Origin: Crocinitomix sp. | Lineage (GTDB): Bacteria; Bacteroidota; Bacteroidia; Flavobacteriales_D; Crocinitomicaceae | NCBI GenBank assembly: GCA_013138735.1 | Contig: WTCE01000026.1 | Location: 62,001-126,000 of the forward strand | Reading direction: 5' to 3' | Length of the DNA stretch: 64,000 bases | In this document: one piece after another, positions 1 through 56,608 of the stretch | Position numbering within the stretch: position 1 is the first letter of the stretch | Layout: every line of letters starts with the position of its first letter | Translations under genes and position numbers: made by a program | Notes under the pieces: generated by a model | What the model saw: only the letters and a program-made list of their open reading frames with translations | Told to the model about the DNA's origin: nothing | The model's database searches: none

Positions 1-1411
1 CTAAGTCATGTGAAATTCGTCTCACATCTTGTACTGCTTCACTTAACATACCGTTTACTTTATCAAACAAATCACGGTTTTCACTTTTAATCTCGTCGAT
101 CTTTTGATCCATTAATCCAAAATGTACTTTTACTGCAGCTAACGTACCACCCAATTGATCATGTAAGTCTTGTGCGATTCTTTCACGCTCGGCATTTTGT
201 CCTTCTAATAAAGCTGCATAAGACTTCGCTTCTTGCGTTTTGAGGAGGGTGTTTATTTCTTGATTTTTCACGTCTACTTCGAGAGAGTTGAGTTTTGATT
301 TTTGTTTGGTGTTACGGCGCCAGAAGAAGAGAGCGATTGCGATTATTCCGAAGGCGCTTAGGAGGAGGTAGATTGTTAGGCGTTTGTTTGCGTCCTCGGC
401 TTGAAATTTTTCTTTTTCGGTTCTTTCGAATTGGCCTTTTTGTTGAGCTTCTTGGGTTTGATATTTAGCCTCGTATTCGGCTGTAGCATCTATTATCGCC
501 ACTTGCTTTTCAATTGAGTAAACGGAATCTCGGTATGAAATATATTCGTCAAACATGCTAACAGCTGAATCCGAATAATTCAATTTTACGTAGACCTCTG
601 CTTTGGACAAAATTATGTAATCCAAATTTTCAAAATTCCCAGTCTGTTCAACTATTCTTTCCGCTTCTTGAAAGAGGTAAAGCGCTGAATCATACTGCCC
701 CAATTCATATTTGCAAACACCAAGATCAATCACGGGTGAGATTGTCCTACCGAACGCACCTAATTCTAGATACTTTGCACGAGACAATCTATAATAAAAA
801 ATGGCCCTTTCTAACCGATCGTTATTGTACTCAATATTTCCGAGATTTGTATATGCCGTAGCGACTCCTTCGGTATCATTTTGATCAATATATATTTGCA
901 ATGCTTGAGTATGATAAAATAGTGCACTATCATAATTCTCAAGATTAAAATGAACGTTTCCAAGCCCCGAGTACAAACCTTTCAAATAATTTGGATTCCC
1001 GTCTTGTTTTTTTATGGTTAGGCTTTTATATAGATGCACTAAACCGAGGCTATCTTCTCCTAATGATAAGAGTAATCTAGAGAGATACTCGTGACTTGAA
1101 GCCGCATGAAGACTATATCCAAACTCCATGCGTATTTCAAGGGCGTTCTCTAGATAAATCTGCGCCGAATCTGGTTTTGCCGTAACACGATATATTTCAC
1201 CTAAAATCGAATAACACTTTGATTTAAAATATGGACTTTTTTCAACTTCCGATAACTTAAGAAATTTAAGCAATTTTCCCTTAACGATTTCGGGTTCATC
1301 ATATTTTATCCCTGAGCAATCATTTATTGCAGTTTCCAATTGAGTGGAATCCATTTTACAGTATCCACCGCGAGAAAGTATTAATAATAATATGATTATA
1401 AACTGTTTCAA
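1..1411 (-). CDS. TPR-containing sensor histidine kinase (HisKA_3/NarL type), partial
   Basis: Two-component sensor kinase cut by the left edge. A reading frame open to base 1 begins at a TTG at 1411, giving a hydrophobic signal peptide (MKQFIIILLLILS); the next in-frame ATG (1354) would remove it. Several tetratricopeptide repeats fill the exported part, a transmembrane helix lies near residues 340-365, and a coiled coil leads to a HisKA_3 dimerisation box ERERIAQDLHDQLGG. The phosphoacceptor is His417 by the TTG start. The ATPase domain lies outside the window. The gene starts 12 bp after the lipoprotein gene at 1424-1999, so the two are probably cotranscribed. Kinases of this type normally pair with a LuxR/NarL regulator, which is not visible here. 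Confidence 0.88.
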   Translation of the reverse strand, partial: MKQFIIILLLILSRGGYCKMDSTQLETAINDCSGIKYDEPEIVKGKLLKFLKLSEVEKSPYFKSKCYSILGEIYRVTAKPDSAQIYLENALEIRMEFGYSLHAASSHEYLSRLLLSLGEDSLGLVHLYKSLTIKKQDGNPNYLKGLYSGLGNVHFNLENYDSALFYHTQALQIYIDQNDTEGVATAYTNLGNIEYNNDRLERAIFYYRLSRAKYLELGAFGRTISPVIDLGVCKYELGQYDSALYLFQEAERIVEQTGNFENLDYIILSKAEVYVKLNYSDSAVSMFDEYISYRDSVYSIEKQVAIIDATAEYEAKYQTQEAQQKGQFERTEKEKFQAEDANKRLTIYLLLSAFGIIAIALFFWRRNTKQKSKLNSLEVDVKNQEINTLLKTQEAKSYAALLEGQNAERERIAQDLHDQLGGTLAAVKVHFGLMDQKIDEIKSENRDLFDKVNGMLSEAVQDVRRISHDL

Positions 1412-51603: not shown

Positions 51604-53940
51604 ATGAAATTATTCACACTTATCATTTTAAGTACCGCTTCTATTCTTACACAGGCGCAAACTTTTACTGAGGTCATAAAGGCCTCTGCATTCGATCGTT
51701 CGGCGGAAGACCGAATGGGATACGCTGTAGACATATCTGGCGACTATGCTATTGTTGGAGCCTATGGAGACGATTTTAGTGAGTTTGACCCGAATATGGG
51801 ATCAGCATACATTTTTGAAAAAACAGGGATCGAGGATTGGGCTTTTGTCCAAAAAATAAACAATTCTGATCAAGATGATTATGACCGTTTTGGTTGGTCG
51901 GTTGCCATTGATGGTGATTATGCAGTGGTAGGCGCGTATGGAGAAGATCATGATGTAGATGACGATAATTCAATGTCTAAGGCAGGTTCAGCCTATATTT
52001 TTGAACGAGACGCATTTGGCAGTTGGAATGAAGTTCAGAAAATTGTTGCTTCGGATCGTGACACAAGTGATGAATATGGGTGGACAGTAGACGTGTCTGA
52101 CAATACAATTATTGTAGGTGCTCATCAAGAAGACCATGATGCAGTTGGAGGAGATTTTATTTTTAGATCTGGTTCAGTTTACGTTTATGATCGTGGTGAT
52201 GATGGTGTTTGGACAGAAACGCAAAAAGTTGTAGCATGGGATCGTCAAGCAGATTCAGGCGGCGGAGATGAGGATTTAGACATCTGGCATTATCAAGACA
52301 TTGATTATGGCGATCTTTTTGGATGTTCAATTGGTCTTTCTGGCGATTATATGATTGTTGGGGCACATAATGGCGATTATAATGTAGATGGAGTGTGGGG
52401 AATAGATCAAGCCGGAGCCGCGTATATTTTTAAACGTGATGCAGGTGTTTGGGGTGCAGATCAGAAAGTAATTGCTACTGTTCGTGGCGGATGGGATCGT
52501 TATGGCTATTCAGTAGCCATTGATTCAAATGTAGCTGTTGTTGGGGCAAAAGCAGAAGATCATAGTGAATTTGAAGGTGCTTTTTTACATAATGCAGGTT
52601 CGGCATACATTTACACTAGAGACATAGCTGGAGTTTGGGGCGTGCAAAAAATTGATGCTAGCGACAGAGATGTGGGTGATCATTTTGGAATTGAAGTGGC
52701 TATTGATGGCAATTACATGGTAATTGGAGCAGATGCGCAAAATTATGATGAGGACGTTGCAGACGAATTGAGCAATGCTGGTGCCGCATATATTTTTGAA
52801 AAAGCTGGGGATGACTCCTGGGAAGAGATTCAAAAAATAGATGCTAGTGATAGAGATAGCCTGGATGTGTTTGGTGATGCAGTCGCTATTTCAGGACATA
52901 CCATTTTAGTTGGAGCTTGGCAACAGGATTTAGATTCAGCTTCATTGCTTTATACAGAGGATGCAGGTGCAGCTTATTTCTTTAGTTCCATAACATGCAC
53001 GGCCGAAACATTTACGCAAGATGTTGACCTATGCGCTGGAGAATCAATTGAGGTTGGCTTATCTGTATATACCGAAACAGGAACTTATGTAGATACTTTA
53101 TTAAATAGTGACGCCTGCGATAGTATTGTCACCACTAACCTATCTGTAGCTCCTGTAATTACGAGTTCAGAAACTGTTGATTTATGCTTTGGCGAGACTT
53201 ACGAAATTGGTGGCTCTGTTTACGACGAATCAGGCACATATCTCGACACACTTATGAGCGATATAGGATGCGATAGCCTTGTCACTACCGAATTAACTAT
53301 TGCAGCGGATAATCTTGTTGAGCAATCATTTAATATTTGTTCTGGCGAATCAGTGAATGTTGGAGAATCCGTCTATACAGAATCTGGAACATACACAGAT
53401 ATATTTGAATTTGATGATGCCTGTGATAGTACTGTAATTACGACAGTTGATGTAATTACAGACATTGACATCACGCTTGATGATTCTGATTTACCCGACT
53501 TAACTTCTAATGAACCCGAGGGCGGATCTACGAGTTATCAATGGATAAAATGCGATCCATTTGAAATAATTGATGGTGCTACGGAAATTAGCTATACACC
53601 AACTGAGGACGGTGAATATGCGGTTATTATTGAAAAAGACTTTTGTATTGACACTTCAGCATGTTATTCTGTTGAAGGTGTAGGCATTCAAGTTTCATTG
53701 TTCAATGAAGTGCGCATTTATCCCAATCCTAGTAAGGGGCAACTAACGATTGAATTAGCACAGGGTATGGAAAACGGTCAAATCACACTTTATAATAACC
53801 TTGGTGCCATTGTTTCTCAAGTTTATATCGAAAACAAAACAGCTACATTTGATTTTTCAGCTTTGGCCAATGGCATTTATTTTGTTCACATAATTTCAGA
53901 AGGAAAAACAAGCTATTCTAAAATCAGAATTACTAAGTAG
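51604..53940 (+). CDS. FG-GAP propeller T9SS protein, paralogue 4
   Basis: 778 residues. Signal peptide 1-18 (MKLFTLIILSTASILTQA), FG-GAP blades to about 455 (DRFGWSVAIDGDYAVVGAYG), three CDS-type Cys modules, Ig-like YQWIKCDPFEIIDGATEISY and T9SS tail VRIYPNPSKGQLTI. Nearest to paralogue 3: the second blade linker and the Cys modules agree closely. Separated from it only by the antiporter gene. Probable surface binding protein. Confidence 0.9.
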   Translation: MKLFTLIILSTASILTQAQTFTEVIKASAFDRSAEDRMGYAVDISGDYAIVGAYGDDFSEFDPNMGSAYIFEKTGIEDWAFVQKINNSDQDDYDRFGWSVAIDGDYAVVGAYGEDHDVDDDNSMSKAGSAYIFERDAFGSWNEVQKIVASDRDTSDEYGWTVDVSDNTIIVGAHQEDHDAVGGDFIFRSGSVYVYDRGDDGVWTETQKVVAWDRQADSGGGDEDLDIWHYQDIDYGDLFGCSIGLSGDYMIVGAHNGDYNVDGVWGIDQAGAAYIFKRDAGVWGADQKVIATVRGGWDRYGYSVAIDSNVAVVGAKAEDHSEFEGAFLHNAGSAYIYTRDIAGVWGVQKIDASDRDVGDHFGIEVAIDGNYMVIGADAQNYDEDVADELSNAGAAYIFEKAGDDSWEEIQKIDASDRDSLDVFGDAVAISGHTILVGAWQQDLDSASLLYTEDAGAAYFFSSITCTAETFTQDVDLCAGESIEVGLSVYTETGTYVDTLLNSDACDSIVTTNLSVAPVITSSETVDLCFGETYEIGGSVYDESGTYLDTLMSDIGCDSLVTTELTIAADNLVEQSFNICSGESVNVGESVYTESGTYTDIFEFDDACDSTVITTVDVITDIDITLDDSDLPDLTSNEPEGGSTSYQWIKCDPFEIIDGATEISYTPTEDGEYAVIIEKDFCIDTSACYSVEGVGIQVSLFNEVRIYPNPSKGQLTIELAQGMENGQITLYNNLGAIVSQVYIENKTATFDFSALANGIYFVHIISEGKTSYSKIRITK

Positions 53941-54035
53941 TGTCTGACTTTAACCTCCACTACCCCTTTATTTATCGAAGGCAAGACAGTACCTCCACTT
54001 ATTAAACATCCAATATTGGTAGCTACACAACCACT

Positions 54036-54084
54036 CTATACTCCGCCAAAAGTATAGTTTTTAAGGTGATTTGGCGGAGTATAG
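54036..54084 (+). repeat. 49-bp palindromic element A
   Basis: Left arm CTATACTCCGCCAAA (54036-54050), right arm TTTGGCGGAGTATAG (54070-54084), perfect 15-bp pairing, loop of 19 nt beginning AGTATAG. Identical in all 49 bases to element C beyond the ATPase gene. Confidence 0.92.
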
Positions 54085-54111
54085 CACATGTTCCTCTGAA
54101 ACAAAAGCATC

Positions 54112-54160
54112 CTATACTCCGCCAAAAGTGATTTTTTTTTGTAGGTTTGGCGTAGTATAG
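54112..54160 (+). repeat. 49-bp palindromic element B, abutting the ATPase start
   Basis: Arms CTATACTCCGCCAAA and TTTGGCGTAGTATAG (one mismatch), 19-nt loop beginning AGTGA and rich in T. It begins 76 bp after the start of element A and ends 8 bp before the ATPase ATG (54169), so the right arm covers the usual ribosome-binding region. Confidence 0.92.
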
Positions 54161-54168
54161 GATAAGAT

Positions 54169-55584
54169 ATGAGGGAAATTGTAGGCAGAAAAAAAGAAAT
54201 AAAACTACTTAAAGGCACATTACTAAGCGACCGTTCAGAATTAGTAGTTGTGTATGGTCGCAGGCGTGTTGGGAAGACTTTTTTATTGCGAAAAACGTTT
54301 GAAAAACAAATAGAATTTGAAATAACTGGAATGTTTGAAGGCAACCTTGCCGATCAACTAGAGAATTTCACCAACGAAATTCGTGTACGAACAAATAAAC
54401 CAGAGACAAAGCGTCCTAAAAAATGGATTGAAGCCTTTGTCCTTTTACAACATTACATTGAACAACTTCCAAAAAGGGGAAAGAAAGTCATTTTCATTGA
54501 CGAGTTTCCATGGATTGCCACTCAGCGTTCAAAATTCTTAATGGCATTTGAAAACTTTTGGAATAGTTATGCCACAAAAAGAGATGATTTAATTGTTGTT
54601 ATCTGTGGTTCCGCAGCATCATATATGGTACAAAAAATCATTAAAAATAGAGGAGGACTTCATAACAGAATTTCAACTAAAATAAGGCTACAACCATTCA
54701 CATTAGGAGAAACACAGCAGTTTCTAAAAAGCAGAAACATCAATTATACTCAATATGACATCCTTCAACTTTACATGGCCATTGGAGGAATTCCTCATTA
54801 TTTGGAACATGTGCAAAGAGGGCTTAGTATTGCTCAAAATATAGATCAACTCTGTTTTGAGAAAAATGGGCCACTTAATGATGAATTCAATCAACTATTT
54901 GCTTCATTATTTGACAATTCAGAGCGCCACATCATTATTATTAAAGCTTTAGCAAAAGTTAGGCAAGGAGTTACGCGTAAAAAACTCATTGACAGCACAA
55001 AGATTACCAGTGGCGGCGACTTTAGCAGAAAACTAGCGGAATTAATTGAATCCGGATTCATTTCAGAGTCCACTTATTATCAAAAAAAGACAAAACAAAC
55101 GCTTTATCGCCTTTCAGATGAGTACACCCTATTCTACCTGAAATTTATAGAACCAAATAAACATACTGGGCCAGGAACTTGGACCAACCTATTTACCTCA
55201 CAATCTTACACCTCTTGGTCGGGATTTAGTTTTGAGACTATCTGCCTCAAGCATATTCAAAACATCAAGAAAGGATTGAAAATTGAAGGTATAATGTCTT
55301 CAAACAACAGTTGGTTTAACGAAAATGCACAAATTGACCTGCTAATCGACCGTGAAGACAGAGTAATTAATTTATGTGAAATAAAATTTACTCAAGCGCC
55401 ATTTGAAATTACAAAGAGCTACCACAAAAACCTTCTAAACAAAATAAATGCATTCAAATTAGACACCGAAACCAATAAAAATATATTCTTAACAATGCTT
55501 ACAACTGCCGGTATTAAACAAAATAAATACAGTCTTGAAATCGTTGAAAGTGAACTAACTTCTGCTTGCTTATTTAAAGACTAG
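54169..55584 (+). CDS. AAA-type ATPase fused to PD-(D/E)xK-like nuclease domain (DUF234 type)
   Basis: 471 residues of the archaeal-type ATPase family. Walker A GRRRVGKT at 30-37, Walker B VIFIDEFPW with Asp111-Glu112, sensor region VVICGSAASYM, a winged-helix segment at about 255-320 (VRQGVTRKKLIDSTKITSGG), and a C-terminal DUF234-like domain with QIDLLIDRED and CEIKFT that supplies Asp390, Glu404 and Lys406, the layout of a PD-(D/E)xK nuclease. No signal peptide. It is bracketed by five 49-bp palindromes, one only 8 bp upstream, so mobility or self-recognition of those repeats is plausible. The biological role of this family is not settled. Confidence 0.88.
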   Translation: MREIVGRKKEIKLLKGTLLSDRSELVVVYGRRRVGKTFLLRKTFEKQIEFEITGMFEGNLADQLENFTNEIRVRTNKPETKRPKKWIEAFVLLQHYIEQLPKRGKKVIFIDEFPWIATQRSKFLMAFENFWNSYATKRDDLIVVICGSAASYMVQKIIKNRGGLHNRISTKIRLQPFTLGETQQFLKSRNINYTQYDILQLYMAIGGIPHYLEHVQRGLSIAQNIDQLCFEKNGPLNDEFNQLFASLFDNSERHIIIIKALAKVRQGVTRKKLIDSTKITSGGDFSRKLAELIESGFISESTYYQKKTKQTLYRLSDEYTLFYLKFIEPNKHTGPGTWTNLFTSQSYTSWSGFSFETICLKHIQNIKKGLKIEGIMSSNNSWFNENAQIDLLIDREDRVINLCEIKFTQAPFEITKSYHKNLLNKINAFKLDTETNKNIFLTMLTTAGIKQNKYSLEIVESELTSACLFKD

Positions 55585-55588
55585 AGCG

Positions 55589-55637
55589 CTATACTCCGCC
55601 AAAAGTATAGTTTTTAAGGTGATTTGGCGGAGTATAG
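55589..55637 (+). repeat. 49-bp palindromic element C
   Basis: Identical to element A over 49 bases, same orientation, beginning 4 bp after the ATPase stop codon. Confidence 0.92.
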
Positions 55638-55664
55638 AGGTGTTAATAACAATTCGAATGGCAC

Positions 55665-55713
55665 CTATAACCAGCCAAAAGTGAATTTTTTAGTGAATTT
55701 TGGCTGAGTATAG
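55665..55713 (+). repeat. 49-bp palindromic element D, diverged
   Basis: Arms CTATAACCAGCCAAA and TTTGGCTGAGTATAG with a 19-nt loop. The ninth base of the left arm changed C to A and the partner base changed G to T, keeping the pair; two other arm positions no longer pair. It begins 76 bp after element C starts, the same step as A to B. Confidence 0.85.
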
Positions 55714-55735
55714 ATACACAAGCAAAAAAACAACT

Positions 55736-55784
55736 CTATACTCCGCCAAAAGTGTCAATTTTAGCAAGATTTGGCGGAGTATAG
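55736..55784 (+). repeat. 49-bp palindromic element E
   Basis: Perfect 15-bp arms (CTATACTCCGCCAAA/TTTGGCGGAGTATAG) and a 19-nt loop beginning AGTGT; 71 bp after the start of element D. The short frames that cross it are by-products of the palindrome. The rest of the gap to 55975 holds nothing I recognise. Confidence 0.92.
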
Positions 55785-55975
55785 CGCGTGTGAAATAAAG
55801 TGATTACAGATTCGATAAATAGAAATCGCATCACTAAATAGCATGAAAATTCGTCTTCAGTTTGAATTGTATTAGCCGTTGAATGTATGTGATACAAATG
55901 TTTTGACATCTGCCAAAACACCTACTCCGCTCCAAGGGACAAAGCCAGCAATTGATAATATGAATGGCCTTTTAA

Positions 55976-56608
55976 TCATTGAATGGTTTCTACAAATGTG
56001 AAATATTTTCTCCAAATATTGCCTAACATAGCGTATCCTTCAAACCCCAAATCTTTACACATTTCAATCCGATTATTATCGATTCCGCCAAGCGCAATTA
56101 TCTTGTGATCTGTTTCCTTCAAAAATGCCGTTAAAATTTCATGATCATCAAAAGCCGAGTGATAATCAAGCTTGGAAATGCTATCAAATATTGGACTTAA
56201 AAAAACATAATCCGTTTGAAAAGGGAGCTGCTGAATTTCGCCAAATCTATGTGCCGAGTATGAAATTAAGTCTGGGCGTTCTCCATGTACATAAATCTGT
56301 CCATCTCGTAAACATAAGTCCCGCATATCACATGCAGAAGTCAACTCATCTGGATAGGACAAATTGGCCATAGTCTTTGCGTTGATATTAATTCCAGCCA
56401 AATTAAACTCATGGACCAATTCAAAATGCGAATGCAATACAACTTTATGTTGGTGACTGGGAATAAGTTCTAAAAAATTAACCATTTCTTCTTTCGAATA
56501 ATCCGGTTTACGCACGTGCAAAAAATCCCACTCTTCCTCCATTAAATTTTGCAAAAGGAGTGTTTCATGCGGCAAGGCCTCTGGATATGTGAATAGAATT
56601 TTTAACAT
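55976..56608 (-). CDS. thiamine phosphate synthase/TenI-like barrel
   Basis: 210 residues, TIM-barrel of the ThiE/TenI family. The pattern of FLHVRKPDYSKEEM, VVLHSHFELVHEFNLAGINI, DYVFLSPIFDSISK and IIALGGIDNNRIEMCKDLGF, ending YAMLGNIW, follows ThiE: substrate-binding Arg-Lys, a phosphate loop and a Gly-Gly near the end. The thiazole and pyrimidine contact residues are partly changed, so a TenI-like role is possible. No other thiamine gene is in the window. It follows a second, shorter ThiE-like gene by 24 bp. Confidence 0.8.
   Translation of the reverse strand: MLKILFTYPEALPHETLLLQNLMEEEWDFLHVRKPDYSKEEMVNFLELIPSHQHKVVLHSHFELVHEFNLAGININAKTMANLSYPDELTSACDMRDLCLRDGQIYVHGERPDLISYSAHRFGEIQQLPFQTDYVFLSPIFDSISKLDYHSAFDDHEILTAFLKETDHKIIALGGIDNNRIEMCKDLGFEGYAMLGNIWRKYFTFVETIQ

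Follow-up and report, generated by a model that had tools for sequence, protein, structure and literature searches.

A PDC-S27 family gene of Crocinitomix bracketed by palindromes that are probably its own operators

The C proteins of restriction-modification systems and other self-regulated toxins and nucleases are cases in which the promoter of a DNA-cutting system holds the operators of its own regulator. Archaeal Orc1/Cdc6 proteins with their ORB repeats join an AAA+ domain to a winged helix and have inverted sites beside their own gene. Among the candidate phage-defence systems in PADLOC, PDC-S27 (Pfam ATPase_2 plus DUF234) and the related PDC-S01 (AAA_14 plus DUF4143) are ATPase domains fused to PD-(D/E)-X-K members; both are especially abundant in Archaea, S27 being also common in Bacteria, and most PDCs are without experimental validation (PMC12988326). 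In the main text of that paper the string "palindrom" occurs 0 times, and the passages on PDC-S27 there make no mention of operators (PMC12988326). Among the papers listed by literature searches on this protein family, with or without palindromes or inverted repeats, none appears to describe such an arrangement, going by the titles and the first lines of the abstracts; the searches did not extend to preprints or to most subscription papers.

The locus described here lies in a window of 64,000 nucleotides from Crocinitomix sp. (contig WTCE01000026.1) and encodes a protein that matches PDC-S27 over nearly its full length and PDC-S01 through weak PADLOC cross-matches. It differs from the C proteins in that the ATPase-nuclease would itself contain the regulator and that candidate operators also follow the gene, and from Orc1/Cdc6 in the added PD-(D/E)xK-type domain and in the several divergent family copies per genome. 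With REP/RAYT pairs it shares palindromes around the gene of a DNA-acting enzyme, while the enzyme is different and dispersed copies are lacking.

The gene and five palindromes in the window

Features of the locus are listed in Table 1. The encoded protein was matched by Pfam ATPase_2 (E 3e-23) and DUF234 (E 5.5e-6) and, over residues 1-469 of 471, by the PDC-S27 model PDLC04984 of PADLOC (E 2.7e-194); by these matches, an ATPase domain is joined to a PD-(D/E)xK-type domain. The Walker A and B motifs and the likely nuclease site Asp390, Glu404 and Lys406 proposed in the initial annotation are present, with D390 conserved in at least 90% of 30 aligned sequences and E404 and K406 invariant, and the protein is a putative nuclease. 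The winged helix predicted between these domains was matched by weak profiles only (HTH_34, E 0.01; MJ223, E 0.021). The best match in a sequence search of the PDB was VchTnsC (E 1.1e-5). No transposase family, Y1 HUH included, matched the protein in Pfam up to E 1, and no other recombinase gene was found between the palindromes.

Table 1. Coordinates of features at the locus, in positions of the window
Feature	Position	Strand	Remarks
Palindrome A	54036..54084	+	distal upstream copy; arms perfect over 15 nt; 19-nt loop
Palindrome B	54112..54160	+	start-proximal, overlaps candidate promoter box; one arm mismatch
TAGGTTTG, match to the TAnnTTTG box	54142..54149	+	its TTTG begins the right arm of B
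AAA+ ATPase / winged helix / PD-(D/E)xK gene	54169..55584	+	471 aa; PDC-S27 family
ATPase_2 domain, residues 5-215	54181..54813	+	Walker A GRRRVGKT, Walker B FIDE
Predicted winged helix, residues 256-322	54934..55134	+	weak profile matches and covariation
Residues 281-291	55009-55041	+	contain several of the strongest covarying columns
DUF234 / PD-(D/E)xK-like match, residues 343-409	55195..55395	+	includes D390, E404, K406
Palindrome C	55589..55637	+	starts 5 bp past the stop codon; identical to A over 49 nt
Palindrome D	55665..55713	+	imperfect
Palindrome E	55736..55784	+	arms perfect over 15 nt
thiD remnant	55847..56015	-	residues 1-62 in two frames (frameshifted); edge of thiamine operon

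The five palindromes bracket the gene in a single orientation with start-to-start steps of 76 bp (A to B), 76 bp (C to D) and 71 bp (D to E), and the coordinates, the spacings and the identity of A and C were reproduced as first annotated. All five loops are 19 nt long and open with AGTA or AGTG, in agreement with the AGTR given for them. The description of every element as 15-bp arms around CTATACTCCGCCAAA, the half-site of the window palindromes, holds for A, C and E; B departs from it by a single mismatch within an 18-nt arm, and for D, with arms CTATAACCAGCCAAA / TTTGGCTGAGTATAG, it is too loose. Because all 7 exact matches to the 15-nt arm in the 6.84-Mb assembly fall at the window locus, the array there is not a product of chance. 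Allowing one mismatch in the 15-mer added 3 matches, 2 at the window locus and 1 elsewhere. A reading of the palindromes as dispersed repeats is contradicted by this confinement of the exact arm, and the genome-wide occurrence that the initial annotation had named as evidence against its proposal was not found in the assembly.

The source genome carries four full copies of the family and one fragment. The other three full copies also have tandem palindromic repeats by the start, different for each copy, with periods of 58, 77 and 53.

Palindromes and half-sites beside homologues

Homologues, mostly from Bacteroidota by the titles of the named records, were gathered by searches of the genus, the family and named genomes. 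Of 114 loci, 113 were matched (L037 was missed) and 98 were kept after 9 duplicates (first 200 aa) and 6 loci without the N-terminus were dropped. The distribution is patchy: at E up to 1e-40, 44/240 genomes of the family and 20/394 of the phylum had a match, counting the source genome. The phylum sample gave 20 new loci, 19 of which were read (L193 is a fragment). Three members (L005, L036 and L037) are broken or partial; two are C-terminal fragments and the third is interrupted by an in-frame TAG. Family homologues also occur on phage WO and other viral contigs (L150, L195-L201) and on 147 plasmid records, the last being mostly distant relatives.

A strong palindrome (score of at least 22) within 110 bp upstream of the start was found in 73/98 homologues versus 8/92 control ORFs (at least 150 aa, from the same loci) and 11/980 shuffles, and a palindrome just downstream of the gene in 34/88 homologues versus 12/91 control ORFs and 3/880 shuffles. 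Flanking palindromes, which the initial annotation had suggested looking for in all homologues, are common upstream, less so downstream, and not universal on either side. Scores fell below 20 for 18 homologues, several of which by eye have imperfect pairs or a misplaced start; a clear proximal pair was absent by eye at L117, L084, L088 and L058. A more lenient detector found a proximal palindrome, and took a half-site, in 17/19 loci of the phylum-wide sample, the remaining two being L175, apparently on the same contig as L119, and L180. The sequences of the palindromes differ among homologues and their position is the same. Outside Bacteroidota, palindromes precede homologues in Butyrivibrio, Wolbachia phage WO, Vibrio and Rhizobium and in a MAG labelled Planctomycetota, with weaker pairs in Malaciobacter and Desulfosarcina; two haloarchaeal homologues had nothing above threshold and, by eye, a short dyad only. 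Among plasmid and phage homologues, 10 of the 12 examined among 33 matches listed had a palindrome with a score of at least 20 within 400 bp upstream, a count made without a control.

A proximal candidate was present in 88/98 homologues, and 81 half-sites were obtained after removal of 5 by hand and 2 by score. Half-sites downstream of the gene were compared with the upstream half-site of the same locus in 73 of the 81 loci. Matches were found in 35/73, forming an inverted pair at 16 of these loci, versus 0/73 with a shuffled core. Matching half-sites were missing in the other 38/73, and bracketing by palindromes is therefore not obligatory. The spacing of half-sites, outer to outer, was 33-34 bp in 141/148 exact NNCCAAA/TTTGGNN pairs (63/67 proximal, 36/39 distal, 42/42 downstream) and in none from shuffled flanks. 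Where several palindromes stand in tandem upstream, as at several loci, their centre spacings are mostly 52-54, 64-66 or 76-78 bp, as if quantised.

The -7 promoter box of Bacteroidota has the consensus TAnnTTTG. Of the proximal elements, 71/88 had a full match (10/88 when the other strand was read), versus 12/76 distal and 13/52 downstream elements; the proximal copy is enriched even though TTTG comes from arms common to all copies. The proximal palindrome is centred at -34, a value obtained with a lenient threshold when centres were restricted to -46 to -20. In phage WO, TATAAT lies within the loop of both upstream copies. Judged by match to the consensus only, the start-proximal palindrome appears to overlap the promoter of the gene.

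For pairs of loci, half-site similarity was set against protein identity in sliding 30-residue windows, corrected for whole-protein identity; 75 loci were entered, incomplete proteins and L143 being left out. The covariation peaked at residues 266-295 (r 0.39), and the top six windows all start at residues 256-281. The same peak was obtained in 43 representatives of less than 70% identity (r 0.35, 0/500 permutations) and, after the set was enlarged, in 49 representatives (r 0.28, 0/1000 permutations), with permutations that do not preserve phylogeny. When all 92 loci were used, the window 161-190 in the ATPase domain ranked highest (0.295) and 266-295 second (0.272); as whole domains, ATPase and winged helix correlated about equally (0.564 and 0.549). 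The link between enzyme and palindromes, a guess in the initial annotation, is well supported by this covariation with the predicted winged-helix region and by the palindromes that stand in the same place beside homologues.

At single residues, 58 of the 75 loci could be anchored on the CC of the half-site, and residue 284 was compared with the bases before it: D occurred with CG in 25/25, T or Q with AG in 19/19 and R or K with TT or TG in 6/6, the two exceptions in this first set being G284 with CG and S284 with AG. A code based on residue 284 alone was rejected, as it fails in a later clade with R or G284 alongside GGCC or CGCC; there, residue 287 tracks the site (R with GGCC in 6/7, one unscored; D, Q or K with CGCC in 4/4). 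A pairing of D281 with GCGG was also dropped and its count left unused; the base pattern also caught arms of another class. A tree built without the winged helix contains only 3-4 changes of residue or site class. The independent events behind the residue tables are thus few, and the single-residue rules are therefore best taken as leads; the window-level peak is the stronger result.

Flanks and spread

Loci L044 and L045 are 92.1% identical in DNA and lie in unrelated flanks, with common DNA only from -118 to +38, which corresponds within a few bases to the stretch bounded by the two outermost palindromes. L105, L107, L109 and L110 (94-96%) share a block that begins between -212 and -252 and ends between +80 and +198, beyond which the flanks are unrelated. 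Other close pairs differ: L074/L076 and L051/L053 share more, and L135/L136/L138 end elsewhere. Because some pairs of 92-96% identity have unrelated flanks, palindromes and gene travel together between genomes, in some pairs. This much remains of the mobile system first proposed: gene plus palindromes at 92-96% DNA identity in unrelated contexts in some pairs, and nothing beyond that. Simple repeats of the GAGGTTGAGG type adjoin the unit at L044, L045 and L069.

Copies within one genome (44 pairs from 17 genomes) were at most 57.9% identical, a figure to be read with the caution that drafts and MAGs can collapse near-identical copies; the own-genome fragment L005 and two fragment-bearing genomes (G069, G153) were left out. 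The flanks and these pairs fit horizontal spread of the unit and not transposition within a genome. Exclusion of like specificities from one genome was considered and rejected: half-site similarity reached at least 10 in 1/20 same-genome versus 83/415 cross-genome pairs, but a rank test showed no difference (p 0.68), 20 of the 44 same-genome pairs having usable half-sites at both loci.

Synteny on the thiE side of the window locus was compared within the genus (9/9 genomes with a match; neighbouring stretches of seven compared and junctions of five read). In G007 and G008, thiD-thiE-thiG-thiH (named from translations) stand where the window block lies, and other sequence is present at the site in G004, G005 and G006. 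Comparison with relatives lacking the gene, which the initial annotation had proposed, showed through the thiD remnant that the block marks a replaced operon, but gave no clean junction. Likewise, no clean empty site was found in the genus at the window locus, where there is replacement instead, and no contiguous one for L044 and its flanks among the 13 genomes of its genus.

Targeting of tRNA genes was rejected, as a tRNA lay within 600 bp of 5/98 genes versus about 3 expected, with 3 of the 5 in one clade and none in the window. At L105, L110 and L134, the gene ends 114-228 bp from a tRNA-Asn gene, and at the related L107, L109 and L112 a short end resembling GCTCCCC is retained, by eye, on one side or on both.

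Readings of the array

We consider it probable that the gene is a self-contained, self-controlled ATPase-nuclease unit and that the palindromes are its private operators, read as duplex DNA by the encoded protein. The winged helix (residues ~256-322) would bind the inverted half-sites at their fixed spacing and, since the gene-adjoining copy overlaps the gene's own promoter by consensus match, binding would most likely repress transcription. The extra upstream and downstream copies may add occupancy (by cooperativity, looping or titration) and may also keep the protein at its own locus; clades with different half-sites would allow several units to coexist in one genome, operators and gene would pass together between genomes, and phage defence might be triggered once the protein leaves its operators. 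Computed support consists of the recurrent anatomy, the fixed spacing, the covariation, the promoter-box overlap and the co-transfer in some pairs; from these we infer the binding itself and the autorepression, while nuclease activity and a role in phage defence are likewise putative.

Under a rather unlikely alternative, the unit is a mobile element that ends at the outer palindromes and is moved as a palindrome-gene-palindrome block by its ATPase-nuclease, loosely like TnsA plus TnsC. The L044/L045 block bounded by the outer palindromes, the L105/L107/L109/L110 block in unrelated flanks, the position of the window block in place of the thiamine operon found in G007 and G008, VchTnsC as top PDB match and the patchy distribution would all suit it. 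It is opposed by the divergence of the same-genome pairs, subject to possible assembly collapse, by the failure of genus comparisons to yield an exact empty site, by close pairs that share more DNA or end elsewhere and by the lack of another recombinase gene between the palindromes, while promoter overlap and varying half-sites are unexpected for termini.

The long stems, T-rich loops, tandem copies ahead of the gene and leader position could instead indicate RNA hairpins, acting as the RNA antitoxin of a type III toxin-antitoxin system, as attenuators or as processing signals. On indirect evidence this is very unlikely, as arm mismatches have no clear bias towards G.T (57, versus 41 A.C and 118 others; 48 versus 33 upstream, 9 versus 8 downstream), half-site spacing is fixed and half-sites covary with a predicted DNA-binding fold. 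In addition, with the -7 box inside the proximal copy, most of that copy's left arm would be untranscribed from that promoter, and no Rfam match up to E 1 was obtained in 53900-56000. Least probable by far are dispersed palindromes of the REP/RAYT kind flanking the gene by accident. The analogy, drawn in the initial annotation from palindromic units beside the gene for a DNA-acting enzyme, finds no support: dispersed copies are absent from the assembly and a Y1 transposase domain from the protein, and the palindromes keep their place and change their sequence among homologues. As the proximal copy overlaps the promoter box, the palindromes are undispersed and same-genome copies are divergent, the array is therefore better read as protein-read operators than as repeats that are maintained or copied.

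As private operators, the palindromes offer a concrete and cheap handle on the self-regulation of a single-gene nuclease and on the coexistence of several copies, and the homologues form a ready-made set of DNA-reading winged helices, each with its site. Restraint of the nuclease on its sites, with release on infection, is conjecture; if it is true that the array also restrains the nuclease, defence would be under an unusual kind of control. A broader form of the conjecture, which we regard as unlikely though less so than the alternatives above, is that such genes form a family of movable nuclease units, each made of a single gene and palindromes that serve as its private address. The AAA+ nuclease would sit inactive on its own bracketing palindromes until invading DNA or phage takeover upset their occupancy and set it free, and addresses would have diversified so that many units can coexist. 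PDC-S01 ATPases may share the design. Among 30 PDC-S01 relatives (L224-L253; a DUF4143 sample out of a longer match list, with starts placed roughly), an upstream palindrome with a score of at least 22 was present in 8/30 loci, in contrast to the window family a minority and mostly with shorter loops. At L225 and L233, matching copies lie on both sides of the gene.
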